A model generated the notes under the pieces. The model was given only the letters and a program-made list of their open reading frames with translations, was not told the origin of the DNA and did no database searches. From the NCBI GenBank assembly GCA_020341835.1, contig CP070838.1:2578929-2613444 (forward strand): 34,516 bases of DNA. The letters run 5' to 3'. The translations under genes and the position numbers were made by a program. Origin of the DNA: Thiotrichales bacterium. Its GTDB lineage: Bacteria > Pseudomonadota > Gammaproteobacteria > SZUA-229. Below, piece by piece: positions 14,349 through 34,229 of the stretch (positions are counted from its first letter, which is position 1; the number at the start of each line of letters is the position of its first letter).

Positions 14349-15032
14349 TTGGGACAGCACAACCAGGAAATAATCGATGCACTGAAGCAGTCTCACCTGT
14401 TTTCCAGCCTGGACGAACAGCAGCTGGAGCGCGTGTACAGCCACTCCAGAATCGTCAAGCTCGAGGACGGACAACTGCTGTTTGCGCAGGGTGAAGATGT
14501 TGATTATTTTTATCTTGTTCTCAGCGGCAAGATCAAACTGTTTCGAGTCTCCCCCGATGGACAGGAAAAGATTATAGAAATCGTTCGCTGTGGCGGAACC
14601 TTCGCGGAAGCTTTGATGTTCATGGATCAGCCGCATTACCCGGTGAGTTCAGCGGCCCTGTCTGACACGGTCGTGGTGGGCATCGATGCAAAAGATTTCA
14701 AGGCCATGCTGTGGGATTCGGTCGACACCTGCTTGCTTCTGCTCGGTGATATGAGCTATCGATTGCGCAAGCTGGTTTACGAAATCGATGTGCTGACGTT
14801 GCACTCCGGAACCTGCCGCGTCGCCTCCTATCTGCTGCAGCACGCGCCGGATGACCAGGACAGCTTTGAACTGGAAAATGCAAAAAGCGTGATAGCTGCG
14901 AGGTTGTCGGTCAAGCCGGAGACATTTTCACGCATTATCAAGAATCTCAGGGGCGAAGGCGTTATCAGCATTCAGGGCAGCAAGATTACGATACATAATC
15001 GCGAAGCCCTGAAAACCTACAGCCTGGTCTGA
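14349..15032 (+). CDS. dnr: Dnr-type CRP/FNR-family regulator
   Basis: The 227-residue protein has an N-terminal cyclic-nucleotide-binding-like beta roll (about 10-125), a long dimer helix (about 125-155) and a C-terminal winged helix. The segment FAEALMFMDQPHYP near residue 86 and the recognition helix VKPETFSRIIKNL near 189-201 closely resemble Pseudomonas Dnr, the NO-responsive activator of denitrification genes. The E-x-x-SR pattern predicts recognition of TTGAT-N4-ATCAA sites. The N-terminal Fe-S cysteines of FNR are absent, so oxygen sensing through an Fe-S cluster is unlikely. The start is TTG. Two matching palindromes lie at 20430 and 24971. The stop is 8 bp from a convergent heme-copper gene. 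Confidence 0.82.
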   Translation: MGQHNQEIIDALKQSHLFSSLDEQQLERVYSHSRIVKLEDGQLLFAQGEDVDYFYLVLSGKIKLFRVSPDGQEKIIEIVRCGGTFAEALMFMDQPHYPVSSAALSDTVVVGIDAKDFKAMLWDSVDTCLLLLGDMSYRLRKLVYEIDVLTLHSGTCRVASYLLQHAPDDQDSFELENAKSVIAARLSVKPETFSRIIKNLRGEGVISIQGSKITIHNREALKTYSLV

Positions 15033-15040
15033 ACCCGCTC

Positions 15041-16405
15041 CTACAGCTGATCCTTCACGGGTCTTATCGCCAGGTAGACGATGACCAGAAACATCACGCC
15101 GCCGATGATCGAAATCAGGCCGCCAAAGCCCATCAGGCTCATTCCCGCGACCTGTTCAAACTGTTCCAGGCCCTGTTCGCTGCCGGCCGTTTTTCGCTGT
15201 ACGCCGTAACCGCCGGACCAGGCGAGGCCGATGATATGCATCAACTGGCCGCTGCCATAGATGCCCGGCTGCCATCTTGCAGCTCGCCCGGAGACTTTCC
15301 TGAAACCCAGGCGTGGGAGGATGTGATAGGTGATGCCCATAAAGGCGAGGGTCACGCCGACAATGGAGCCGTGATAATGGGCAGGCACGGTCACGTTGCT
15401 ACCCGTGATCATGAAGCCGATGATACCGCCGACACCGAACAACAGGATCGAGAACAGCAGTGTGTTGCGTTCAACCTCGAAGCCGGGTGTGGGGCGCCAT
15501 TTTTCGATCACGGACAGCGTGGTCGCCAGACCGATCGGTACCGCAGCAAGCGCCCCGCCATACTTCATCAGTTGTATGAACCAGAACAGATGGCCGCCGG
15601 AACTGACCTCGAATCTGAAATAGATAATCGGGACCATTACAAGCGGCGCCATGCCCAGTGCGAACAGTATCAGCGCGATACGTGGTGATACCCGCAGGTA
15701 GGCGCCGCTGACTGAAGCCAGCCACAACCAGGCAACCAGCATCAGCTGTGTATGGGTGAACTGGATGATATGGCCGCTGCCCCAGAACAGGCGGTCATAA
15801 TAGGCCTGCCCGACAAAACCTTCATCGATATCGAAATAGGACAGGACGAGCGCGACAATCGCCAGCAATGCCGCTATCGCAGCAACGAGCAGGCCAAAAC
15901 GCAGCGCATCGACGCCGCCGATTCGGGTGCCGATCGTCCAGGATGCCAGGAATGTGCGCACCACCAGCAGGCTGAAACCGAGCCCGAACGTGCCCAGGCC
16001 GATGAAGAACACGGTGCTTTGTAATACTGGTACGTAGTTGTTCATTAACGGATAACTTTCACCGGTGAACGGCGAGATCGTGATGATCAGTGTGCCGGCA
16101 GCGCTGAGCAGCAAAGCGAGCCATCCGGTGCGCGGGTAACGGTTCGAACTGTTGTAACTCCAGAGTACACCGGCAAAAGCCAGGAACCAGACCAGTACGG
16201 TCAGATCAACATGAACGACCAGTGCGGTCCGAAAGAAATCGACCCAGGGAATGATTTCCTGAAAATAAGGTGTCCGCGAGAGTACGATCAGGATCGTAAA
16301 CAGCCCGGCGATGACCAGCGAAGCGAGGCCCAGGAACAACCAGGCGGTTGTCATTTTGCGTGCATCAGCATCCGGTTCAGGCAATGTGAATTGATCGGCC
16401 AGCAT
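15041..16405 (-). CDS. Divergent heme-copper oxidase-like subunit I (possible NOR-family protein)
   Basis: The 454-residue protein, started at ATG 16405 (a TTG at 16414 is alternative), has about twelve membrane segments. Heme ligands of the heme-copper family are visible: H65 in helix II (VVHVDL), and H343 and H345 in helix X (VPAHYHGSIVG). The binuclear metal site is abnormal. H212 is kept in helix VI (WGSGHIIQF), but the residue four later is F216 instead of Tyr, and the helix VII His pair is G271-H272. It therefore cannot be a standard oxygen reductase. Heme b-only NO reductase relatives or a non-catalytic or sensory role are alternatives. There is no CuA subunit beside it. It lies between Dnr and SCO1 genes. 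Confidence 0.8.
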   Translation of the reverse strand: MLADQFTLPEPDADARKMTTAWLFLGLASLVIAGLFTILIVLSRTPYFQEIIPWVDFFRTALVVHVDLTVLVWFLAFAGVLWSYNSSNRYPRTGWLALLLSAAGTLIITISPFTGESYPLMNNYVPVLQSTVFFIGLGTFGLGFSLLVVRTFLASWTIGTRIGGVDALRFGLLVAAIAALLAIVALVLSYFDIDEGFVGQAYYDRLFWGSGHIIQFTHTQLMLVAWLWLASVSGAYLRVSPRIALILFALGMAPLVMVPIIYFRFEVSSGGHLFWFIQLMKYGGALAAVPIGLATTLSVIEKWRPTPGFEVERNTLLFSILLFGVGGIIGFMITGSNVTVPAHYHGSIVGVTLAFMGITYHILPRLGFRKVSGRAARWQPGIYGSGQLMHIIGLAWSGGYGVQRKTAGSEQGLEQFEQVAGMSLMGFGGLISIIGGVMFLVIVYLAIRPVKDQL

Positions 16406-16695
16406 AAGGGGCAAAAATCAGGCGCTAATTGGAGGGGGTTGAACCCGGGACATGGGTGGGGGTATCTTCATCGGCGCTATTTTAATGGCTTTCGGGGCGC
16501 AATGCATCGACTGAATTGTGCGCCTGGAAAGGTGTCATTGGGCGCTAAAGGCAATACCGCGTGCAGGGTCGTTATGCACGTGCCCTGACGGGGCGTAGGC
16601 AAAGAATATCCGACAGCACGGGTGTTGTATAATGCTTGTCCCGATGGTTGGAAAACCGTAGGGTAGTGGTTTTCCGCGATCAACCTGTGTAACCA
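16406..16695. other. Divergent spacer with promoter and 5'-UTR hairpin
   Basis: This spacer separates the reverse heme-copper gene from the forward small membrane protein gene. On the forward strand TATAAT lies at 16628-16633, without a clear -35 box. The likely leader then holds a strong hairpin (see 16646-16685). For the reverse gene I find no convincing promoter or FNR-type palindrome. No additional ORF is supported. Confidence 0.5.
16646..16685 (+). promoter_or_regulatory. Leader hairpin before small membrane protein gene
   Basis: GGTTG (16646-16650) pairs with CAACC (16681-16685), and GAAAACC (16651-16657) pairs with GGTTTTC (16668-16674). This leaves a 10-base loop and a 6-base bulge on the 3' side. 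The structure starts 13 bases after a TATAAT and ends 10 bases before the ATG at 16696, so it could occlude or present the ribosome site. No known riboswitch class was recognised. Confidence 0.45.
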
Positions 16696-19618: not shown

Positions 19619-20095
19619 TTATCCGGTTTTTCGCAGAAAAGCATTCTTTGCGTTACGTATCATGGTTCTCAGTTTGTTTTCATCGATTTCGTCGTGTGAC
19701 ATCAGGTTGGTGAGTTTGTGCAGGCGCGAATCATGCGTTTTGAAGTGCAGCTGGAACCAGTCGTTCAGTTTCTGCTTGAATTTGTCGCCGTCGAGATCGG
19801 TCGCATTTTCGAATTCATCGGTGATATCACGGATATCATCCAGCAGGCGCTCATGATCGGCCTGGTGCTGTTCATAATGGTCATAACCGTGCCGTTCCAT
19901 CATCTTTTCTTCCAGGGCGAAATGCGCAGAGATGCTGCCGTAGATATCGCCGAGGCCGTCGATGACGCTGTCTTTGTCAGCTTCGTCATCGATTAACGCA
20001 TAGATGGCGTTGATCTGTTCGATCAGTTGCCGGTGCTCGTGGTCGACGCCCTGTATGCCGGTACAGAAATCATCTCGCCATTCAATCAATGCCAT
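19619..20095 (-). CDS. Bacteriohemerythrin
   Basis: The 158-residue four-helix protein carries all expected di-iron ligands: H21 (VDHEH), H58 and E62 (HFALE), H77 and H81 (HQADH), H117 and D122 (HFKTHD). Hemerythrins bind O2 reversibly and some bind NO. In bacteria they serve as oxygen stores, deliver O2 to oxidases or protect against NO. It has no membrane segment or signal peptide, so it is cytoplasmic. It lies between ctaA and the divergent heme-copper operon, a context that suggests O2 or NO handling. GATAAT at 20200-20195 on the same strand may be its -10 box, giving a leader of about 90 bases. Confidence 0.92.
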   Translation of the reverse strand: MALIEWRDDFCTGIQGVDHEHRQLIEQINAIYALIDDEADKDSVIDGLGDIYGSISAHFALEEKMMERHGYDHYEQHQADHERLLDDIRDITDEFENATDLDGDKFKQKLNDWFQLHFKTHDSRLHKLTNLMSHDEIDENKLRTMIRNAKNAFLRKTG

Positions 20096-20645
20096 CGACA
20101 GTCTCCCGATCTTTGGTGAAAATGGTAGGACGCGTCAACTCGGCACCGAGTTCTGCGCTGCAAATAAGGGTATAGCTGAATTTCATGGCGAACGATTATC
20201 CCGCATTTTAATCTATTAGGAAATACTGTTGAATGGATACGGAGTTGAAATGACCGTCTGCAGGTAATCGAGACGGTGAATGAAAAGCATTCGCTATTAG
20301 GTTAATGCCCGCCCACTGGAATTCATTCATCATCATTCGGTCGTGCATCACTAGATTGCGCCGGTCGGCTGCCAAGGTATGAACAAGCCGTAGGACAGGT
20401 TGAAGCTTATATTAATATGTCATGATCATTTGACATAGATCAATGTCATTCAGAGCCTGTTTAAATAATCTCCCCCACTAATTGTGTTATATAATGCAAG
20501 GAATGTGTCATTTGGCACAGCCGAGGATATATGACCGGCTATCAATGGGTTTCATCCCGCACCGGGTAAGATCGGGAGGGGGTGGCGATAGTCCGTAGCC
20601 ATCACAAAGATTTCAAATTCAATATTAAAAATAAGGAGTCTGTCC
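20096..20645. other. Divergent control region of the heme-copper operon
   Basis: This 550-bp non-coding region separates bacteriohemerythrin (reverse) from the heme-copper operon (forward). On the reverse strand it holds a possible -10 at 20200-20195. Forward it holds an FNR/Dnr-type palindrome at 20430-20443, -10-like hexamers AATAAT (20464-20469) and TATAAT (20490-20495), and a long leader. The leader contains a 12-codon frame (20531-20569, GAGG four bases before its ATG) and complementary segments that can pair in two ways. I see no gene in 20201-20429. Confidence 0.6.
20430..20469 (+). promoter_or_regulatory. FNR/Dnr-type box with -10 element
   Basis: TTGAC-ATAG-ATCAA (20430-20443) differs from the FNR/Dnr consensus TTGAT-N4-ATCAA at one base. 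AATAAT at 20464-20469 lies near the distance expected for a class II promoter, where the box is centred close to -41.5. A TATAAT at 20490 is a second candidate, placing the box near -65. The Dnr-type gene at 14349 is the likely regulator. Confidence 0.65.
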
Positions 20646-20818: not shown

Positions 20819-21358
20819 ATGACTTCATATTTACCCCCTTCGGAGCGTATCTGGTGGAAGGTGCCTGTTGGCAAACAGGAAGTGATCTGGATTGGTATCG
20901 CGCTGATCTGGTGTCTGATCATGTTTTTCATGATGCCTTACTGGCATCTGTTCGGTAAGCAAAACCTTTCAAACGAGGCCTATCAGACCACGCCGGCCAA
21001 GTTCCAGGCCAGGGTGGATGAAATGGTAGCGCAGTACCAGGTCGGTGAAGAGGCCGGTATTCCGATTGTCAGGCCACCTGCGGGCAGTGATGTCTACCTG
21101 TTAGGCAGGCTCTGGCAATGGTACCCAATTCTCGAGCTGGAAAAGGACCAGTCCTACAGGATTCATCTGTCGTCCATGGACTGGCAGCACGGTTTCTCTC
21201 TTCAGCCAGTCAACATAAACCTGCAGATCGTTCCCGGCTACGAAATGGTCGTCACCATGACACCTGACCAGGCCGGCGATTACGCTATTGTATGCAACGA
21301 ATATTGCGGCATCGGTCATCATGCTATGCTCGGCAAAATCTACGTGAAGGAGAATTAA
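20819..21358 (+). CDS. Heme-copper enzyme subunit II with CuA site
   Basis: The 179-residue protein has one N-terminal membrane segment (about 22-40) and a periplasmic cupredoxin domain. All CuA ligands are present: H124 (DWQHGF), C159, E161 (backbone ligand), C163, H167 and M170 in CNEYCGIGHHAM. It should therefore accept electrons from a soluble donor such as cytochrome c or a copper protein and pass them to subunit I. The domain is shorter than in aa3 oxidases (one membrane helix instead of two), as in ba3-type and alternative NO reductase subunit II. The stop is followed 2 bp later by the subunit I start, indicating translational coupling. SCO/SenC genes nearby fit CuA loading. Confidence 0.93.
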   Translation: MTSYLPPSERIWWKVPVGKQEVIWIGIALIWCLIMFFMMPYWHLFGKQNLSNEAYQTTPAKFQARVDEMVAQYQVGEEAGIPIVRPPAGSDVYLLGRLWQWYPILELEKDQSYRIHLSSMDWQHGFSLQPVNINLQIVPGYEMVVTMTPDQAGDYAIVCNEYCGIGHHAMLGKIYVKEN

Positions 21359-21360
21359 AG

Positions 21361-23094
21361 ATGGCACAATTTAGAGTATGCCCGGACTCGGGTTTCTATT
21401 TTGACAAGTCTGCCGAGAGCCTGATGAAGGTGAATGCTATAGCTGGTGCTGTATCATTGCTGATTGCGGGTATTCTGGCGATAGGCGTTATTCTGACGCG
21501 CTGGCAGGAAGTGCATTTGCTGCCTGCGGATCTGTTTTACCAGGCGCTGACTGGGCATGGCATAAACGCGCTGATTTTCTGGATCATCTTCTTTGAAATT
21601 GCGATCCTGTACTTTGCCTCCTCAACGCTGTTGCGAACCCGACTGGCAGCGCCGAAATGGGCATGGCTGGGCTTCATCCTGATGGTCGTTGGGGCCGTGA
21701 TGAACAATGTCGCGGTTGCACAGGGTAATTCGAGCGTGATGATGACCTCGTACGCACCGATGCAGGCAGAACCCCATTTCTATCTGGGCCTGATACTGTT
21801 CGCTGTTGGTGCGCTGATCGGTGTCTTTGTGTTCTTCGGTACGCTGGTTATCGCCAAGGATGACCAAACCTACGAAGGCTCTGTGCCTCTGGTGACCTTT
21901 GGTGCGATCACGGCAGCAATTATTGCCGTATTCACCATTGCCTCGGGTGCCGTTATCCTGGTACCGACCTTCCTCTGGTCGATCGGCTACATCAACCACA
22001 TCGATGCTGAAATGTACCGTATTATCTGGTGGGGTCTGGGCCATTCCTCGCAGCAGATCAACGTTGCCGCCCACGTGTCTGTCTGGTACCTGCTCGCGGG
22101 CATCCTGTTCGGCGCACGACCAATGTCGGAAAAAGTCAGCCGCACAGCATTCCTGCTCTACATCCTGTTCCTGCAGCTGGCCTGCGCACACCATATTCTG
22201 GTCGATCCCGGTATCAGCTCGGAGTGGAAGGTGTTCAACACCAGTTACGCAATGTACCTCGCGGTTCTGGCGAGTATGATCCATGGTCTGACCGTTCCTG
22301 GTGCTATGGAGGTGGCACAGCGTGAGAAAGGCCTGACCAAGGGTCTGTTCGAATGGTTACGCAAGGCGCCCTGGGGTAATCCGGTGTTCTCCGGTTTCTT
22401 CTTCTCGCTGGTCATCTTCGGTTTCATCGGTGGTATCACCGGTGTTGTCATGGGTACCGAGCAGATCAACCTGATCATCCATAACACCATTTACGTACCG
22501 GCGCATTTCCACGCGACTGTGGCCGTGGGTACAACGCTGGCCTTCATGGCGCTGACCTATCTGCTGATCCCGGTACTGTTCAGACGCAGCCTGTTCCTGC
22601 CGTGGGTGGCAAAAATGCAGCCTTACGTGTTCTCGGCAGGCATGACAATCATGATCCTGTTCATGCTGGGTGCGGGTACGCTGGGCGTATCTCGTCGCCA
22701 CTGGGACATGGACTTCACCGGTGCAGCGCTGAGCTTTGAATACCCGGGTACTGCCTACATGATGATGGCGGTGGGCGGTATCGGCGGCGTGCTGGGCATC
22801 CTGGGTGGTGCGATGTACCTGCTGGTCACTGTAGGCTCGCTGGTATTCGGCAAGAAGCTGGAGCCTTCAGCCGGTCTGTTCCAGAGCTTCGGCGTACCGC
22901 TGTCATCAGGCAGCTACAATATTCAGCAGCCTGAGCGCTTGCCTATGGCACCGAAACTGGCCGTCGAACAGCATGGTTCAGCCGGGTTCGAAGCGCCCGG
23001 AACCTTCGTGCTCGCAATGGCCCTGCTGGTGTCTTTTGTTGTGTACTACTTCATCAACTGGGACTACCTGGCATCGGTCTGGCCACTCAGCTAG
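21361..23094 (+). CDS. Heme-copper subunit I, probable alternative nitric oxide reductase
   Basis: From ATG 21361 (GGAG nine bases upstream) the product is 577 residues with about thirteen membrane segments. Metal ligands are complete: H66 in helix II and H384 for the low-spin heme, H382 for the high-spin heme, and H228, H277 and H278 for the third metal. The residue four after H228 is Q232 (GHSSQQ). Oxygen reductases of A/B type have the cross-linked Tyr here and cNOR has an iron-binding Glu. No cbb3-style helix VII Tyr is visible at the equivalent place. This pattern fits alternative NO reductases of the sNOR/eNOR type; which class cannot be settled by eye. A strong terminator follows. Confidence 0.88.
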   Translation: MAQFRVCPDSGFYFDKSAESLMKVNAIAGAVSLLIAGILAIGVILTRWQEVHLLPADLFYQALTGHGINALIFWIIFFEIAILYFASSTLLRTRLAAPKWAWLGFILMVVGAVMNNVAVAQGNSSVMMTSYAPMQAEPHFYLGLILFAVGALIGVFVFFGTLVIAKDDQTYEGSVPLVTFGAITAAIIAVFTIASGAVILVPTFLWSIGYINHIDAEMYRIIWWGLGHSSQQINVAAHVSVWYLLAGILFGARPMSEKVSRTAFLLYILFLQLACAHHILVDPGISSEWKVFNTSYAMYLAVLASMIHGLTVPGAMEVAQREKGLTKGLFEWLRKAPWGNPVFSGFFFSLVIFGFIGGITGVVMGTEQINLIIHNTIYVPAHFHATVAVGTTLAFMALTYLLIPVLFRRSLFLPWVAKMQPYVFSAGMTIMILFMLGAGTLGVSRRHWDMDFTGAALSFEYPGTAYMMMAVGGIGGVLGILGGAMYLLVTVGSLVFGKKLEPSAGLFQSFGVPLSSGSYNIQQPERLPMAPKLAVEQHGSAGFEAPGTFVLAMALLVSFVVYYFINWDYLASVWPLS

Positions 23095-23229: not shown

Positions 23230-24087
23230 ATGTTCAAGCAGATATCCAGCCTATTAAAACTGCGTATTGGCATCATCATGATGTTCACAGCGCTGGCCGC
23301 GATGGTGGCGACGCCCGGGCAGCAACCCGGCGGTTTCGAGGTGCTGGTGCTGGCGTTTGCGGTGCTGGTCTCGGCCGCCAGCGCGGGTGCTTTCAACCAG
23401 TATTTCGAAGTCGATCTCGACAGTCTGATGCAGCGTACGCGGCACAGGCCTTTCGTCACGGGTCGGTTCCACAAGAGCTGGGTGTGGCTGCTGCTGATGT
23501 TGCTGCTGCTGTTTGCCGGTGTGTCATCCGCAGCTGTGGTGCTCAACGGCGCCGCAGCGGCTTATATTTTCCTGGGTGCTTTTTTCTATGCCGTCGTCTA
23601 CACCGTCTGGCTGAAACGGCGAACATGGATGAACATTGTGATCGGCGGAGCCTCCGGCAGTTTTGCGGTGCTCGCCGGTGCCGCTGCAGTCGATCCTGCG
23701 ATGAGCCCGGTGCCGATCCTGCTGGCACTGGTTCTGTTCTTCTGGACGCCGTCACATTTCTGGAGTCTCGCCATCGCCAAGCACCAGGATTACGCCAATG
23801 CCGGTGTGCCGATGTTGCCGGTCGTGATCGGGGACCAGCGCACCGCTGTTGTCGTGCTGATCAACACCCTGATCCTGGTCGGTATTTCGGTGTTACCGTT
23901 TTTCTTCGGACTGGGCTGGATCTACCTGGCCGGTGCTCTGGCGGGCGGCGTCTATTTTATCTACTGCAATTATCTGATGGTGCAGGAACCTTCAACCACG
24001 CTCGCGATGAAAAGCTTTTTTGCATCCCTGGTGCAGCTGGTGTTTCTGCTGGCCGGCGCGGTGCTCGACGTTTACCTGCTGGCCTGA
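23230..24087 (+). CDS. ctaB: Protoheme IX farnesyltransferase (heme O synthase)
   Basis: CtaB adds a farnesyl group to heme B to make heme O, the precursor of heme A. The 285-residue UbiA-family membrane protein has the family motifs: SAGAFNQYFEVDLDSLMQRTRHRPF near residues 55-79 (Asp-rich prenyl-diphosphate site NxxxDxxxD with the MxRTxxRP motif), YTVWLKRRTWMNIVIGG near 130, and TPSHFWSLAI near 175 with the second conserved region. About nine membrane segments are visible. It starts 77 bp after the terminator and precedes the second SCO gene by 23 bp. With ctaA at 18328, the full heme O/A pathway is in this cluster. Confidence 0.95.
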   Translation: MFKQISSLLKLRIGIIMMFTALAAMVATPGQQPGGFEVLVLAFAVLVSAASAGAFNQYFEVDLDSLMQRTRHRPFVTGRFHKSWVWLLLMLLLLFAGVSSAAVVLNGAAAAYIFLGAFFYAVVYTVWLKRRTWMNIVIGGASGSFAVLAGAAAVDPAMSPVPILLALVLFFWTPSHFWSLAIAKHQDYANAGVPMLPVVIGDQRTAVVVLINTLILVGISVLPFFFGLGWIYLAGALAGGVYFIYCNYLMVQEPSTTLAMKSFFASLVQLVFLLAGAVLDVYLLA

Positions 24088-24110: not shown

Positions 24111-24956
24111 ATGCGGTATCCGTTCCTGTTTTTCAGCCTGTTGCTGCTGGCCATCTCCTCTTACAGCCTCAATGCCGCGCCACAGGTCTCAAGGGCTGCG
24201 CCTGATGCAAGTGCCGGGGCAGGGGCTTTCGATTACGACAGCGCGCTGAAAATAAGCCAGGGTGCGATTGGCAACCAGCTTGGCAACTACAGCTTTACCA
24301 ATGCTGAGGGTGAGCGTGTTCACCTGAATGATTTCGCTGGCAAGCCGCTGGTTGTGAGCATGATCTTTACCAGCTGCTACCAGATTTGTCCGATGACAAC
24401 GCGGCATCTGTCGAAAGTTGTCGAAAAAGCACGTGACGCTCTCGGTGAAGACAGCTTCTCGGTCGCTGTGATCGGTTTTGATACCAAGGTCGATACCCCG
24501 GATGCGATGCAGTACTTTGCCAACAAGCAGGGTGTCAGTCACAAAGGATGGCATCTGCTGAGCGTCGCGGAAGAGGATATCGAAGCCCTGTCCAAAGATC
24601 TCGGTTTCATCTATTTCCCTTCCTCGAACGGTTTCGACCATATCATCCAGGCAACTATTATCGATGCTGATGGCAAGGTGTACCGCCAGGTCTACGGGCA
24701 GGTATTTGAAACACCACTGCTGGTCGATCCGTTGATCGAGCTCGTACTCGGGCGGCCCAGGCCCGCGCAGTCGTTCATCAGCACCCTGAGCGACAAGATA
24801 AAGCTGTTCTGTACCACCTACGACCCGGTGCGTGATGGCTATTATTTCGATTATTCGTTGTTTATTGGCATCCTTATCGGCGGCAGCATCATTGTCTATA
24901 CACTGATCATTCTGTTGCGGGAAAGGCGCCGGAGCCGGCAGCATACCGATAGCTGA
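24111..24956 (+). CDS. SCO1/SenC-family protein with C-terminal membrane helix
   Basis: The 281-residue product has a signal peptide (hydrophobic about 5-20, NAAP near 21-24) and a thioredoxin-like SCO domain with the copper motif CYQIC (C89, C93) and the distant His H177 (FDHIIQATIIDADG). Residues after 230 (KLFCTTYDPVRDGYYFDYSL) and a second membrane helix near 251-272 form a C-terminal extension seen in one SCO subgroup. It is the second SCO in the window and probably serves copper-site assembly of the adjacent heme-copper enzyme. It is co-directional with ctaB, with a 23-bp gap. Confidence 0.9.
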   Translation: MRYPFLFFSLLLLAISSYSLNAAPQVSRAAPDASAGAGAFDYDSALKISQGAIGNQLGNYSFTNAEGERVHLNDFAGKPLVVSMIFTSCYQICPMTTRHLSKVVEKARDALGEDSFSVAVIGFDTKVDTPDAMQYFANKQGVSHKGWHLLSVAEEDIEALSKDLGFIYFPSSNGFDHIIQATIIDADGKVYRQVYGQVFETPLLVDPLIELVLGRPRPAQSFISTLSDKIKLFCTTYDPVRDGYYFDYSLFIGILIGGSIIVYTLIILLRERRRSRQHTDS

Positions 24957-24970
24957 TTAGTTGTTCCGGC

Positions 24971-25013
24971 TTGACATGTGTCATGCCGGTTGAATATTAG
25001 CGTATGCTAAAAT
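24971..25013 (+). promoter_or_regulatory. FNR/Dnr-like box with extended -10
   Basis: TTGAC-ATGT-GTCAT (24971-24984) is an imperfect match to TTGAT-N4-ATCAA with an internal TGACA/TGTCA symmetry. TGC-TAAAAT at 25006-25013 is an extended -10. The box centre lies about 30 bases before it, the geometry of a class II FNR-type promoter. The TTGACA could instead be a -35 with ATATTA 17 bases later. Confidence 0.5.
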
Positions 25014-25047: not shown

Positions 25048-26595
25048 GTGCTTGTAAATCCAGTAAAACGGGCCTACCTGGCTCTGGAGTCATGGTTCAA
25101 TGTGTCTTTTGGAACCGAGTGGAACCCGTTGTATCACCTGGGGACTCTGTCGTTCTTCCTGTTCTGGGTGATTCTGGTCAGCGGGATTTACCTGTTCATT
25201 CCTTTTCACGGCAGTCTTGCCGGTGCCTATGAATCCGTCGAATACATGACGCATGAGCAGTGGTACATGGCTGGCGTGATGCGCAGTCTGCACCGCTACG
25301 CATCGGATGCGGTCGTTATTACCGTGCTGTTGCACATGTTCAAGGAACTGGCGTCGGGCCGTTATCGAGGGTTCAGATGGTTCTCCTGGGTCACCGGGGT
25401 GCCCAGTCTGTGGATGATCATCACCCTGGGTATTACGGGCTACTGGCTGGTCTGGGATGAACTGGCCCAGTATGTCGCCGTCGGTTCGGCACGGCTGATG
25501 GATGCGCTGCCGATCTTCTCCGGTGCAATGACGCGAAACTTTGTTGCTGGTGAAATGACCGACCGTTTTTTCATCCTGATCGAGTTTCTGCATTTACTCG
25601 GTCAGCCATTACTGCTGTTTTTCATGTTGTGGATACACGTGAAGCGTATGTCCAATGTGGAAATCAACCCACCGTTTGGTCTGGCAATGGGTACGTTTAT
25701 TGCACTGCTGGGCCTGTCATTCGTTAAACCGGCTGTTAGCCATGCACCGGCCGATCTGAGCGTGATGCCGCAGGTTTTGAATATCGACTGGTTCTATCTG
25801 AACGTTTATCCGCTGCTCGAAATCTGGCCGGAAAAGCAGGTCTGGATTCTAACCACCGGTGTTACTTTCCTGTTGATGATTTTGCCGTGGCTGCCGCCTA
25901 AAAAGGATGGCCTCAAAGCGGTGGTTGATCTTGATCATTGCAACGGCTGTGGTCTTTGCTTTGACGATTGCCCGTTCGATGCGATTTCGGTGCAGGCGCG
26001 TACCGACGGCGCAAAATTCGACAATGAAGTGGTTGTCCATCCCTCGCTGTGTGCCGCCTGCGGGATTTGCGCCGGTTCCTGTCCTTCTTCCAATCCTTTC
26101 AGATCCGCCAGGGAAGAATTGAAAACCGGCATCGACATGCCGCAGTTGACGGCCAATGACATGCGCACGAAAACGGCAGAAGCGGTTGCCGCAATGGATG
26201 GTGAAGTGAATATCGTCGTGTTCGGTTGCGAGCATGGACTTAACGTTCACCGGTTCGACAGCGACGATACCAGAGGCGTTCGCCTGATCTGTAGCGGCAT
26301 GATGCCGCCGACACTGGTTGAATATGCGTTAAAACAAGGCGCCGACGGTGTTATGGTGACCGGTTGTCGCCACAATGACTGTTACTACCGTTTCGGCAAT
26401 CGCTGGACCCGGTTGCGCTTCGAAGGCAGCCGCAAGCCGATACTGCGGGGCAGGGCTGACAGACGCCGCATACGCGTTCATGGCGGCGCAGAGACCGACA
26501 AGAAAAAAATTGAAAAAGATTTGAACGCATTTCGCGCTCAGCTGGCGGAAATAAAGCAGGCGGAAACTTCCGTAACGGAACAGCGGGCCGAGTAA
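25048..26595 (+). CDS. Cytochrome b - 2[4Fe-4S] ferredoxin - MvhD fusion protein
   Basis: The 515-residue protein joins three redox modules. Residues 1 to about 225 are a cytochrome b N-terminal domain with two heme His pairs: H82/H96 (13 residues between) and H182/H197 (14 between), as in b6-type cytochromes. A membrane segment near 265-281 precedes a cytoplasmic 2[4Fe-4S] ferredoxin: C298, C301, C304, C308 and C335, C338, C341, C345. Residues about 385-475 resemble the MvhD/hydrogenase iron-sulfur subunit, with C394, C415, C440 and C445. It probably moves electrons between a cytoplasmic low-potential partner and the quinone pool or the periplasm; the partner is unknown. The start is GTG. 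The stop overlaps the next gene (TAATG). Confidence 0.9.
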   Translation: MLVNPVKRAYLALESWFNVSFGTEWNPLYHLGTLSFFLFWVILVSGIYLFIPFHGSLAGAYESVEYMTHEQWYMAGVMRSLHRYASDAVVITVLLHMFKELASGRYRGFRWFSWVTGVPSLWMIITLGITGYWLVWDELAQYVAVGSARLMDALPIFSGAMTRNFVAGEMTDRFFILIEFLHLLGQPLLLFFMLWIHVKRMSNVEINPPFGLAMGTFIALLGLSFVKPAVSHAPADLSVMPQVLNIDWFYLNVYPLLEIWPEKQVWILTTGVTFLLMILPWLPPKKDGLKAVVDLDHCNGCGLCFDDCPFDAISVQARTDGAKFDNEVVVHPSLCAACGICAGSCPSSNPFRSAREELKTGIDMPQLTANDMRTKTAEAVAAMDGEVNIVVFGCEHGLNVHRFDSDDTRGVRLICSGMMPPTLVEYALKQGADGVMVTGCRHNDCYYRFGNRWTRLRFEGSRKPILRGRADRRRIRVHGGAETDKKKIEKDLNAFRAQLAEIKQAETSVTEQRAE

Positions 26596-27116
26596 TGGAG
26601 AAGATGCACGCGCACCAGAACAGGGTCCTGCGTTATCTGCTGCAGGCGATCAATTACACCGTGTTCATGGCATTGATCTGGTATTTTGCTACCTCGCCGT
26701 CTGTGCGGATACTGGCCGATGATGAAGCCGTGATCACCATGGCGTTCGCGCACGCCGGTGACTTGCGCGAACCCTGCCGCAAGCTCAGTTACGAGGAACT
26801 GGCCAAGCTGCCACCCAACATGCGCAAACCCGAAGAATGTCCACGCGAGCGTTCGCCCGTGGCGATCGAGATGGTGCTCGACGGGGAAACAATCTACAGT
26901 AGATCGCTGAACCCGCCGGGTCTGTATCAGGATGGCGGTGTCGATGTTTACTACAGTAAAAAAATACCGGCTGGCAAGCATTACTTTGAAATCAAAATGA
27001 ACGACAGCGTTCGCGTCGATGGCTTCAACCATACCCACGAGCAGGAGATCAACGTCGAACCTGCACAGATCCTGCTGGTTGATTTCGATTCAGAGAAAGG
27101 CTTCATCATTCAATAA
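26595..27116 (+). CDS. Membrane-anchored protein coupled to the cytochrome b fusion
   Basis: The 173-residue protein overlaps the previous stop by one base (TAATG), so translation is probably coupled. One membrane segment near residues 15-33 (LLQAINYTVFMALIWYFAT) anchors a periplasmic domain. Two cysteines (EPCRK near 61, EECPRE near 82) could form a disulfide. The rest is beta-rich with IPAGKHYFEIKMNDSV and FNHTHEQEINVEP, a pattern like an immunoglobulin-type sandwich. I recognise no named family. Given the coupling, it is most likely a subunit or assembly factor of the cytochrome b-ferredoxin-MvhD complex. Confidence 0.75.
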   Translation: MEKMHAHQNRVLRYLLQAINYTVFMALIWYFATSPSVRILADDEAVITMAFAHAGDLREPCRKLSYEELAKLPPNMRKPEECPRERSPVAIEMVLDGETIYSRSLNPPGLYQDGGVDVYYSKKIPAGKHYFEIKMNDSVRVDGFNHTHEQEINVEPAQILLVDFDSEKGFIIQ

Positions 27117-31959: not shown

Positions 31960-33207
31960 TCAGGCCTGCAGGTCTGACGGACCCTGAATCACCGGAGGTT
32001 CGCGCTGAAGCTTGGCCCTTGACCAGGGCGTCAGCAACAGGCGTTCACGGTCCTGACTGACGCCGATTTCGTCGTTTTCCAGGTAACAGCCCGGGTCTTC
32101 AGCCCAGAAATTGCCGGTGAGCTGCCAGGCGCGGGTACGCGAGTTGCCGCCGCAGATGCCCAGGTAGCGGCATTCGGCACAGCGGCCTTCAAGCGGACGC
32201 TGGTCGAGCTTGAGTCCGGCCATCAACGGGTCGGACGTGTCCATCCAGATTTCGGAAAACGGTCTTTGTTTGATGTTGCCGATGGTGTAATCCCACCACA
32301 TCGTGTCCGGGTGCACGTTGCCGATGTTATCGATGTTCGCAATGTTGACCCCGGAGGCATTGCCGCCCCAGCGCAGCAGCATCTGTTCCAGCCGTTCGGC
32401 GTACTGCGGCATGTGCTTTCTGATCCACAACAACAAATAAACGCCGTCCGCATCGTTATTACCGGTGACGAATTCGCGTCTGCGTCCCGACTGCACATCC
32501 TGCCAGCAGGTGTCGAACAGCAGGTCCATGGCTTCGCGGGTCATCTTGTGATGCAGGTCGTCGCGCCGGTTCTTGTTGCCGCGTCCGGCGTAGTTGAGGT
32601 GCGACAGATAGAACTTGTCGACCTTTTCCTCATCCATCAGTTGCAACAGGCCCGGCAGGTCCTGCTTGTTGTCCTGGGTCAGGGTAAAGCGCAGGCCGAC
32701 CTTGATGCCGGCATCATGACACAGGCGTACACCGCGCAGCGCTTCATCGAATGAGCCCTGTTTGCGCCTGAAGTAGTCATGGGTTTCGCGCATCCCATCG
32801 ATACTGATACCGACATAGTCGTATCCGACCTTGACGATATCATCGATGTTGTTTTCATCGATCAGGGTGCCGTTGCTCGACAGTCCTACATAGAAACCCA
32901 TATCCCTGGCGCGGTGTGAGATTTCAAATATATCCGGCCGCATCAGCGGCTCGCCGCCGGAAAGAATCAGTACCGGAACGCCGAACGCTTTCAGGTTGTC
33001 CATGACATCGAAAACCTGCTGCGTATCGAGCTCACCCGGGAAGTCCTTGTCAGCCGCGGTGGCGTAACAGTGTTTGCAGGTCAGATTACAGCGGCGAATC
33101 AGGTTCCAGATAACGACCGGGCCGGTGGGTTTTCTGGCTGGTCGTTGAGGCCTGTTGGCGGAATCGGCATCATTCAGGGCGTGCAGGTACTGGCTGAGTC
33201 TGAACAT
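31960..33207 (-). CDS. nirJ: Heme d1 biosynthesis radical SAM protein NirJ
   Basis: NirJ carries out radical SAM chemistry that removes propionate side chains during heme d1 synthesis, for cd1 nitrite reductase NirS. The 415-residue product has the radical SAM cluster motif C40-x3-C44-x2-C47 (RRCNLTCKHC), a GGEPL motif near residue 93, and SISIDG-type sequence near 133. The C-terminal SPASM-like region has C-x2-C-x5-C (CAECRYLGICGGNSRTRA) and a later Cys in DPGCYL, for an auxiliary Fe-S cluster. It follows the NirDL-type gene by 2 bp on the same strand. nirS itself is not in the window, and the operon's upstream genes lie beyond the right edge. Confidence 0.93.
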   Translation of the reverse strand: MFRLSQYLHALNDADSANRPQRPARKPTGPVVIWNLIRRCNLTCKHCYATAADKDFPGELDTQQVFDVMDNLKAFGVPVLILSGGEPLMRPDIFEISHRARDMGFYVGLSSNGTLIDENNIDDIVKVGYDYVGISIDGMRETHDYFRRKQGSFDEALRGVRLCHDAGIKVGLRFTLTQDNKQDLPGLLQLMDEEKVDKFYLSHLNYAGRGNKNRRDDLHHKMTREAMDLLFDTCWQDVQSGRRREFVTGNNDADGVYLLLWIRKHMPQYAERLEQMLLRWGGNASGVNIANIDNIGNVHPDTMWWDYTIGNIKQRPFSEIWMDTSDPLMAGLKLDQRPLEGRCAECRYLGICGGNSRTRAWQLTGNFWAEDPGCYLENDEIGVSQDRERLLLTPWSRAKLQREPPVIQGPSDLQA

Positions 33208-33209
33208 GA

Positions 33210-34229
33210 TCAGGCCGCCAGTCGCATGCCGGTTTTTTTCAGGATGGCCGAGCTGAACAGCACTTCGTGGGCCTTGCAGTTGTTGCCGAGCATGTCAGCA
33301 ATCATACCAGCTTTGGTGTCGACTTCGTCGCGCGTATGCCCGTGAACCATTGCAAACAGGTTATAACGCCACACCGGCAGGTGGCGTGGCCGCAAATAGC
33401 AGTGACTGACAAAATCCAGTTGACCGATCTTTTCACCCAGTGCGATCGCGTCGTCATCGGACACATCCCACACGGTCATGCCGTTTGCTTTCAGGCCCAG
33501 CCGGTAATGGTTGGGTACGGCACCGATGCGGCGGATGACGCCGGTTGCCAGCATGTTCTGCAATCTTTGGATGACCTCATCAGCAGTACATCCCGCGGAA
33601 TCGGCGATTGCCTGGTAAGGCTCATTCGTCAACGGTATGCCGGCCTGGGTCGCGCCGATGATGGTTCTGTCGAGCTCATCGGGCAGGCTACTGGTATCGG
33701 TGGCTGCGCCATTCGTTACTGGGGTTGTTGCACCGGTTACGCCCCCGGGAACCGGTATCGTCCGGACCTGGCCTTCAGCATCAAGCTGTAACCACAGGCC
33801 AATGTAAAACTCGTGCTGTTTCGGAAAGTTATATACCTTCAGGCCCGTCGCCTGTTCGATTGCGCCGAGGGTGCTGTCGATTGCTTCGGGTGAGGCGGTT
33901 GCCAGTACGAACCACATATTGAGTTCGTGTTCACGTCGGTAGTTGTGTGCAACTTCAGCGTACTCGTTGACCACTGCGGTGATACGCTCATACTGGTCTT
34001 CGGGTACAGAAAGGGCAGCCAGGGTCAGGCCACCGCCCAGCCTGACGGCATCATACAGCGGACCAAAACGGCTCAGAACACCTGCTTCCAGTAGCTGTTC
34101 GATGGTGCCCAGCAGGGTGTCTTCGGTGCAGCCGAGATCTTCGGCCAGCGAACCGAACGGCGCTGCCTGTAACGGAAAACCACCCTGGTAGCGGTTGATC
34201 AGCTCGCGCTCCAGTTCGCCGAGACTCAT
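33210..34229 (-). CDS. nirDL: Fused siroheme decarboxylase (NirDL-type)
   Basis: Two Lrp/AsnC-like units are fused in one 339-residue chain. The first (about 1-150) contains RYQGGFPLQAAPF, GVLSRFGPLYDAVRLGG and AHNYRREHELNMWFVLA, the NirD-type signature. After a Pro/Thr/Gly-rich linker (about 157-182) the second unit (about 183-339) has GVIRRIGAVPNHYRLGLKANGMTVWDV, FVSHCYLRPRHLPVWRYNLFAMVHG and the end ILKKTGMRL, as in NirL/NirG. Together such proteins decarboxylate siroheme to didecarboxysiroheme in the heme d1 route. Fusion of the two is known in several denitrifiers; the exact paralogue names of each half are my inference. The start overlaps the upstream gene stop by ATGA. Confidence 0.88.
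   Translation of the reverse strand: MSLGELERELINRYQGGFPLQAAPFGSLAEDLGCTEDTLLGTIEQLLEAGVLSRFGPLYDAVRLGGGLTLAALSVPEDQYERITAVVNEYAEVAHNYRREHELNMWFVLATASPEAIDSTLGAIEQATGLKVYNFPKQHEFYIGLWLQLDAEGQVRTIPVPGGVTGATTPVTNGAATDTSSLPDELDRTIIGATQAGIPLTNEPYQAIADSAGCTADEVIQRLQNMLATGVIRRIGAVPNHYRLGLKANGMTVWDVSDDDAIALGEKIGQLDFVSHCYLRPRHLPVWRYNLFAMVHGHTRDEVDTKAGMIADMLGNNCKAHEVLFSSAILKKTGMRLAA

Follow-up and report, generated by a model that had tools for sequence, protein, structure and literature searches.

A cytochrome b6/subunit IV-ferredoxin-MvhD fusion protein and its small membrane-anchored partner, probably dedicated to eNOR in Proteobacteria

Results

The genes at the locus

We analysed a 34,516-nucleotide stretch of DNA (hereafter, the window) from a Thiotrichales bacterium of the Gammaproteobacteria (assembly GCA_020341835.1, contig CP070838.1, positions 2,578,929 to 2,613,444 of the forward strand). 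It carries a heme-copper reductase operon, then a gene that joins a cytochrome b to iron-sulfur domains, and directly behind it a small gene (Table 1).

Table 1. Genes, domains and regulatory motifs of the locus, in window coordinates.
Feature	Position	Strand	Basis
FNR/Dnr-like box upstream of COX2, perfect	20430..20443	+	Motif match
Subunit II of the eNOR-type enzyme (CuA cupredoxin)	20819..21358	+	COX2 Pfam; CNEYCGIGHHAM CuA motif
Subunit I of the eNOR-type enzyme (heme-copper NO reductase)	21361..23094	+	COX1 Pfam E 3.5e-59; GHSSQQ
Heme o synthase (CtaB/CyoE-like, UbiA family)	23230..24087	+	Pfam UbiA E 1e-50
SCO-type copper chaperone	24111..24956	+	Pfam SCO1-SenC
FNR/Dnr-like box upstream of the fusion gene, one mismatch	24971..24984	+	Motif match
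Cytochrome b6/subunit IV-two [4Fe-4S]-MvhD fusion	25048..26595	+	515 aa, GTG start; Pfam/NCBIfam domains
Cytochrome b6-like part, helices A-D, two b hemes	25123..25641	+	Pfam Cytochrome_B 26-198 (E 1.9e-14); PDB cytochrome b6 E 6e-28
b6f subunit-IV-like helices E-F with ef loop	25681..25902	+	Segment-only profile matches b6f subunit IV
Qo-type motif DWFY (PEWY position)	25786..25797	+	D247, W248 and Y250 invariant; aligned to PEWY of subunit IV
Two-[4Fe-4S] ferredoxin domain	25918..26091	+	Pfam Fer4 families (dicluster 291-347, E 1e-10); 8 invariant Cys
MvhD/FlpD-type iron-sulfur domain	26212..26553	+	FlpD 407-502, E 1.9e-16; PDB MvhD/VhuD chains E 1e-11
173-aa partner, N-terminal transmembrane helix and beta-sandwich	26595..27116	+	ATG start; AlphaFold2 mean pLDDT 94

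An eNOR-type reductase precedes the gene pair

Across relatives the genes keep a conserved order (COX2, COX1, heme o synthase, SCO, fusion, small gene), and in 71 of 95 loci the fusion gene has SCO as its immediate upstream neighbour. The gene at the heme o synthase place carries that name in Defluviimonas. The COX1 active site reads GHSSQQ (GHASQQ once) in 55/55 loci where the motif was found, of 58 loci. Its Gln sits at the position of the active-site Tyr, with the CuB His-His and the HxH retained, and the CuA motif of COX2 across loci is CNEYCGIGHHxM. As listed in Table A4 of PMC8756737, the residue at this position is Gln in eNOR, Asn in sNOR and Asp in gNOR. Judged by this signature and the CuA motif, the neighbouring heme-copper enzyme is of the eNOR type; an sNOR or gNOR identity was rejected, since Asn or Asp would be expected by the same table and Gln was found. 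The initial annotation spoke of an alternative NO reductase. A NO reductase-like neighbour is indeed present, and the vague label can be replaced by that of eNOR, whose published signature it bears. The heme-copper genes, heme o synthase, SCO and Crp/Fnr regulator noted at the time were all found in the window.

Several other genes recur around this operon. A COX1-fold protein in the window (15041-16414, minus strand) keeps the heme ligands (the helix-II His and the HxH), lacks the CuB His-His and has Phe at the Gln/Tyr position; in many loci, L059, L101 and L130 among them, such a companion also immediately follows the small gene. A bacteriohemerythrin gene (19619-20095, minus strand) is found near eNOR in 34/95 loci, and directly after the small gene in several Alphaproteobacteria; it may encode a cytoplasmic NO/O2-binding partner. 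The window also holds genes for NirJ and a fused AhbA/AhbB-type protein of heme d1 biosynthesis (31960-34229, minus strand), and a cytochrome cd1-like nitrite reductase (cluster c7) is encoded near the fusion gene in many relatives. In Defluviimonas sp. SAOS-178_SWC the whole eNOR operon with the fusion and small genes lies on a 165-kb plasmid (NZ_CP156080.1, locus L187), on which the genes are annotated as cbb3-type oxidase and hypothetical protein.

The fusion protein combines a b6/subunit IV core with an iron-sulfur arm

Among 58 fusion homologues, the four heme histidines (H82, H96, H182 and H197), the eight ferredoxin cysteines (298, 301, 304, 308, 335, 338, 341 and 345) and four MvhD-type cysteines (C394, C415, C440 and C445) are invariant, and the cytochrome b histidine spacing is 14 and 14/15 in all 58. 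Because these ligands never vary, the domain combination is real and under strong selection. The original proposal that one chain holds two b hemes, two [4Fe-4S] clusters and an MvhD domain is thus upheld by the Pfam matches and the invariant ligands. The heme pairs that went with it (H82/H96 and H182/H197) need correction, because cytochrome b has two His on helix B and two on helix D; by this analogy the pairs would be H82-H182 and H96-H197.

The initial annotation overlooked residues 212-285, which extend the cytochrome b fold beyond residue 198 and correspond to subunit IV helices E-F with the Qo motif. A profile of about residues 201-292 alone matched b6f subunit IV (E 2.7e-5), followed by a weak match to bc1 cytochrome b, and aligned PEWY with the [L/I]DWFY (xDWFY) of the fusion protein. 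The three Qo-motif residues are conserved in 58/58 homologues, and P228 and S231 of the ef loop are likewise invariant. The AlphaFold2 model of the fusion protein (mean pLDDT 87) was matched by Foldseek to bc1 cytochrome b over about 287 residues. Profile and model together identify the chain as a fused b6 and subunit IV core with a Qo-type site, and the two-[4Fe-4S] and MvhD relay is attached after helix F of this core. By analogy, the iron-sulfur domains would be located in the cytoplasm. The position of the b6 heme-cn Cys, aligned to b6 by eye, is mostly His, with Cys in 4/58 homologues.

No ORF with a Rieske motif was found in the 95 fusion loci, nor, as a rule, a c-type partner (c1 or f): a CxxCH ORF within five genes was detected in 18/95 loci, mostly the cluster of the cytochrome cd1-like nitrite reductase. 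An ordinary bc1 with Rieske, c1 and PVWY motif is encoded separately in the same genome.

The small gene encodes a probable second subunit

The stop codon of the fusion gene and the start codon of the small gene overlap in TAATG, and the small gene directly follows the fusion gene in 88 of the 91 loci with room for it. At locus L065 (a single genome) the two form one continuous in-frame ORF, which speaks for a physical complex and agrees with placing the C-terminus of the large chain in the cytoplasm. Both this natural fusion and the adjacency support the earlier suggestion that the 173-residue protein is a second subunit. From the model, its beta-sandwich is expected in the periplasm. No relative was detected by sequence in Pfam, NCBIfam or PDB, or by fold among solved structures. 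C61, M76, C82, R77, R84 and R86 are invariant in 47/47 small subunits, and H53 is conserved in 46/47.

The small gene seemed missing in about 20 loci, an ORF-calling artefact in which antisense ORFs had been chosen instead. An 864-aa ORF at a partial second match (L063), considered as a fusion, was likewise an antisense artefact. The small subunit was also tried as a homologue of FixH/CcoH or FixG_C and rejected (hhalign probability 0.3% against PF05751; no Pfam match). Some alphaproteobacterial small subunits (L125, L127, L137 and L140) have an additional transmembrane-like segment with a linker at the N-terminus.

The pair and eNOR occur in the same genomes

To profile their occurrence, we used a sample of 369 Gammaproteobacteria and a 200-genome phylum sample. 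Among the 369 Gammaproteobacteria, the fusion gene was detected in 34 genomes, eNOR in 34 and the small gene in 35. Fusion and eNOR occurred together in 33 of the 35 genomes with either, and each occurred alone once. The 200-genome sample gave 30 genomes with the fusion, 28 with eNOR and both in 27 of 31 with either (3 and 1 alone). The association with the NO reductase operon claimed at the outset is thus near-exclusive, and the comparison of neighbourhoods across genomes did not place the homologues mainly in unrelated contexts. Formal p-values of co-occurrence are overstated, because the genomes are related and the genes usually linked. The unlinked cases are a better test: when the pair stood alone in the locus read, eNOR was still found in 9/10 genomes, which include Thioploca, Thiotrichaceae, Magnetococcales and others. 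In most of the loci read, contig permitting, the unlinked eNOR had its own COX2 together with SCO and/or heme o synthase.

As for the apparent exceptions, in one genome (G298) eNOR ends 24 bases from the contig end, and two others (G250 and G135) are 77% and 73% complete. Since the pair is found almost exactly where eNOR is, it is probably the dedicated, almost obligate partner of eNOR in Proteobacteria, as far as gene content tells. The rule breaks outside this group: Thermomicrobium and Thermus have enzymes with the eNOR signature and neither an adjacent fusion gene nor one elsewhere on the same plasmid, so the pair is apparently not essential to eNOR.

Additional copies of the fusion gene were seen in a few genomes. 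Two stand-alone copies (L108 and L111) have N-terminal extensions, no small gene and a housekeeping neighbourhood; the L108 genome also has a full operon (L103). Tandem duplicates are present in Thioalkalivibrio denitrificans (L129, 12259-13800) and in G531:C102.

Regulation and the Hdr/Mvh connection

Boxes of the FNR/Dnr type were searched with the consensus TTGAY-N4-RTCAA, and expected counts were taken from shuffled sequence. A perfect box lies upstream of COX2 in 30/50 loci (0.1 expected), and in 43/90 loci the 150 bases ahead of the fusion gene include a box with at most one mismatch (1.5 expected). With boxes before both the COX2 operon and the fusion gene, the pair probably belongs to the same regulon as its second transcription unit. 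Expression is thus probably under an anaerobic NO/nitrite (FNR/Dnr-type) regulon, in line with the Dnr-like control suggested earlier. The Crp/Fnr protein of the window (14349-15032) matched no named equivalog above the cut-off.

The usual role of MvhD is to connect a hydrogenase or formate dehydrogenase with HdrA. HdrA-like genes occurred in 14/32 genomes positive for the pair and 8/32 negative ones (p = 0.19), and an HdrA-type flavoprotein was not found in 18/32 positive genomes, many of them at least 97% complete. Neither HdrA nor another cytoplasmic acceptor gene is conserved in the neighbourhood of the fusion gene. Coupling to HdrA or Qmo as a rule was therefore rejected, given this lack of enrichment, and the general tie to HdrABC-like systems considered in the initial annotation is not supported. 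In the genome of the window itself, a region 5-20 kb upstream (G000:C1, about 2562000-2574000, L068) contains a QmoAB and HdrC/HdrB cluster, a gene for an NnrS-like protein, and an operon for a [NiFe] hydrogenase that includes HdrD-like and cytochrome b subunits.

Discussion

We tentatively favour the explanation that the products of the two genes form a two-subunit complex in the membrane, which serves the neighbouring eNOR-type enzyme of Proteobacteria as a dedicated electron-transfer partner, oxidising quinol on the P side and sending electrons inward. Quinol would be oxidised at the P-side Qo-type site with release of protons outside, and the electrons would cross the membrane via hemes bP and bN, reach the clusters in the cytoplasm and be handed on by the MvhD domain to a common soluble acceptor. 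On the P side, the small periplasmic subunit may stand in for the absent Rieske protein, as a structural cap, a contact to eNOR or a metal site. Through the probable shared regulon, the complex would work when eNOR works. That the hemes lie between a quinol site on the P side and clusters on the N side points to transmembrane electron transfer, and with a Qo site present the oxidation of quinol is the more likely direction. Inward flow is also favoured because quinol oxidation outside would conserve energy and the reverse would spend it. The MvhD domain suggests a soluble partner. Three points count against this explanation: a lone Qo site without a Rieske or c-type partner leaves the handling of both quinol electrons unexplained; no acceptor gene is conserved, and HdrA-like genes are absent from over half of the positive genomes; and the eNOR-signature enzymes of Thermomicrobium and Thermus have no fusion gene beside them.

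The main rival, which we consider possible if doubtful, is that the pair acts as a maturation factor, as proposed for CcoG with cbb3 oxidases: electrons drawn from the cytoplasm would reduce copper or thiols in the periplasm during assembly of the CuA and CuB sites of eNOR. The fusion gene follows two maturation genes, those for SCO and heme o synthase, an order that parallels ccoG, which comes after the cbb3 structural genes (PMC7558416). Two [4Fe-4S] clusters are found in CcoG as well, along with an Ig-like domain in the periplasm, and CrpH, a heme membrane protein that supports heme-copper enzymes, offers a further analogy (PMC13038864). Cys61, Met76, Cys82 and the near-invariant His53 of the small subunit, outside the membrane, could form a plausible copper or disulfide site, and the eNOR enzymes that lack the pair also fit such a role. 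Yet maturation would not require an invariant quinol-oxidation motif, and the small subunit profile is unrelated to FixH or FixG_C. The large chain matches CcoG over the ferredoxin part only, and its profile did not recover the membrane/Ig architecture of CcoG. The resemblance to the cupric reductase CcoG and to CcoH/FixH of cbb3 operons, a membrane iron-sulfur protein and a small periplasmic partner after a heme-copper operon, thus comes with homology at the ferredoxin alone, and the fusion protein adds b-heme ligands and a Qo-type site.

Electrons could instead enter from a cytoplasmic low-potential donor, such as an HdrA- or hydrogenase-type flavoprotein, and pass through MvhD and the hemes to quinone in support of NO respiration. 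The usual hydrogenase/formate dehydrogenase-HdrA role of MvhD would suit this route, as would the QmoAB-HdrCB and [NiFe] hydrogenase genes of the genome. We regard it as unlikely, since HdrA-like genes are not clearly enriched and never a conserved neighbour, and quinone reduction on the P side by electrons coming from the cytoplasm would consume the proton gradient. A Rieske-free bifurcation, with one quinol electron passing via the periplasmic subunit to the CuA of eNOR and the other being pushed along the b hemes and the MvhD relay onto a cytoplasmic carrier of low potential, seems quite unlikely; if true, NO reduction would be the thermodynamic drive that directly powers the supply of reductant. 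That the pair merely shares the operon by ordinary co-inheritance and serves an unrelated redox need is very unlikely. The genes are linked in most genomes, so joint transfer could create the correlation, but eNOR is present in nearly all genomes with an unlinked pair, and a conserved regulatory box of its own precedes the pair.

For the quinol-oxidising complex that we favour, the closest conceptual precedent, by analogy, is the b6-like complexes of Kuenenia with a cytoplasmic iron-sulfur/flavin arm, in which quinol electrons are proposed to go inward (PMC12954380). Both have a b6/subunit IV core, a cytoplasmic iron-sulfur arm and a link to nitrogen-oxide metabolism. The Kuenenia complexes keep a Rieske protein, multiheme cytochromes c and an FAD/NAD(P) unit, whereas the fusion pair lacks all these and its arm is an MvhD domain in the same chain. 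Compared with cytochrome b6f/bc1, the fusion protein has helices A-F, two bis-His b hemes and a Qo-type motif, but it lacks helices G-H, a Rieske protein and cytochrome c1/f in its loci, and carries iron-sulfur and MvhD domains, predicted on the cytoplasmic side. It shares the MvhD-type domain and its conserved Cys with MvhD/VhuD of Mvh-Hdr complexes and differs from them in that its gene context offers neither a hydrogenase nor HdrA as partner. On these sequence comparisons, the pair appears to be a new variant of the Rieske/cytochrome b complexes. In the literature searched, the domain set appeared once, in an appendix table of PMC8756737, where RME88945.1 is listed with cytochrome b6, a DMSOR-beta-like ferredoxin and FlpD, the same set as in the fusion protein. 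The table gives domain matches only, and the passages found discuss neither function nor partner. The pair is thus probably an undescribed eNOR partner within that search, outside which lay the main eNOR survey (PNAS 2024).

The fusion protein represents a natural Qo-bearing, Rieske-less cytochrome b, useful for asking what Qo does without a Rieske partner. Its gene predicts eNOR and may serve as a practical genomic marker of this widespread and little studied NO reductase, hence a source of N2O. The pair bears on how some denitrifiers route electrons to NO reductase, and an almost obligate partner in Proteobacteria would change the picture of the electron supply or assembly of eNOR.
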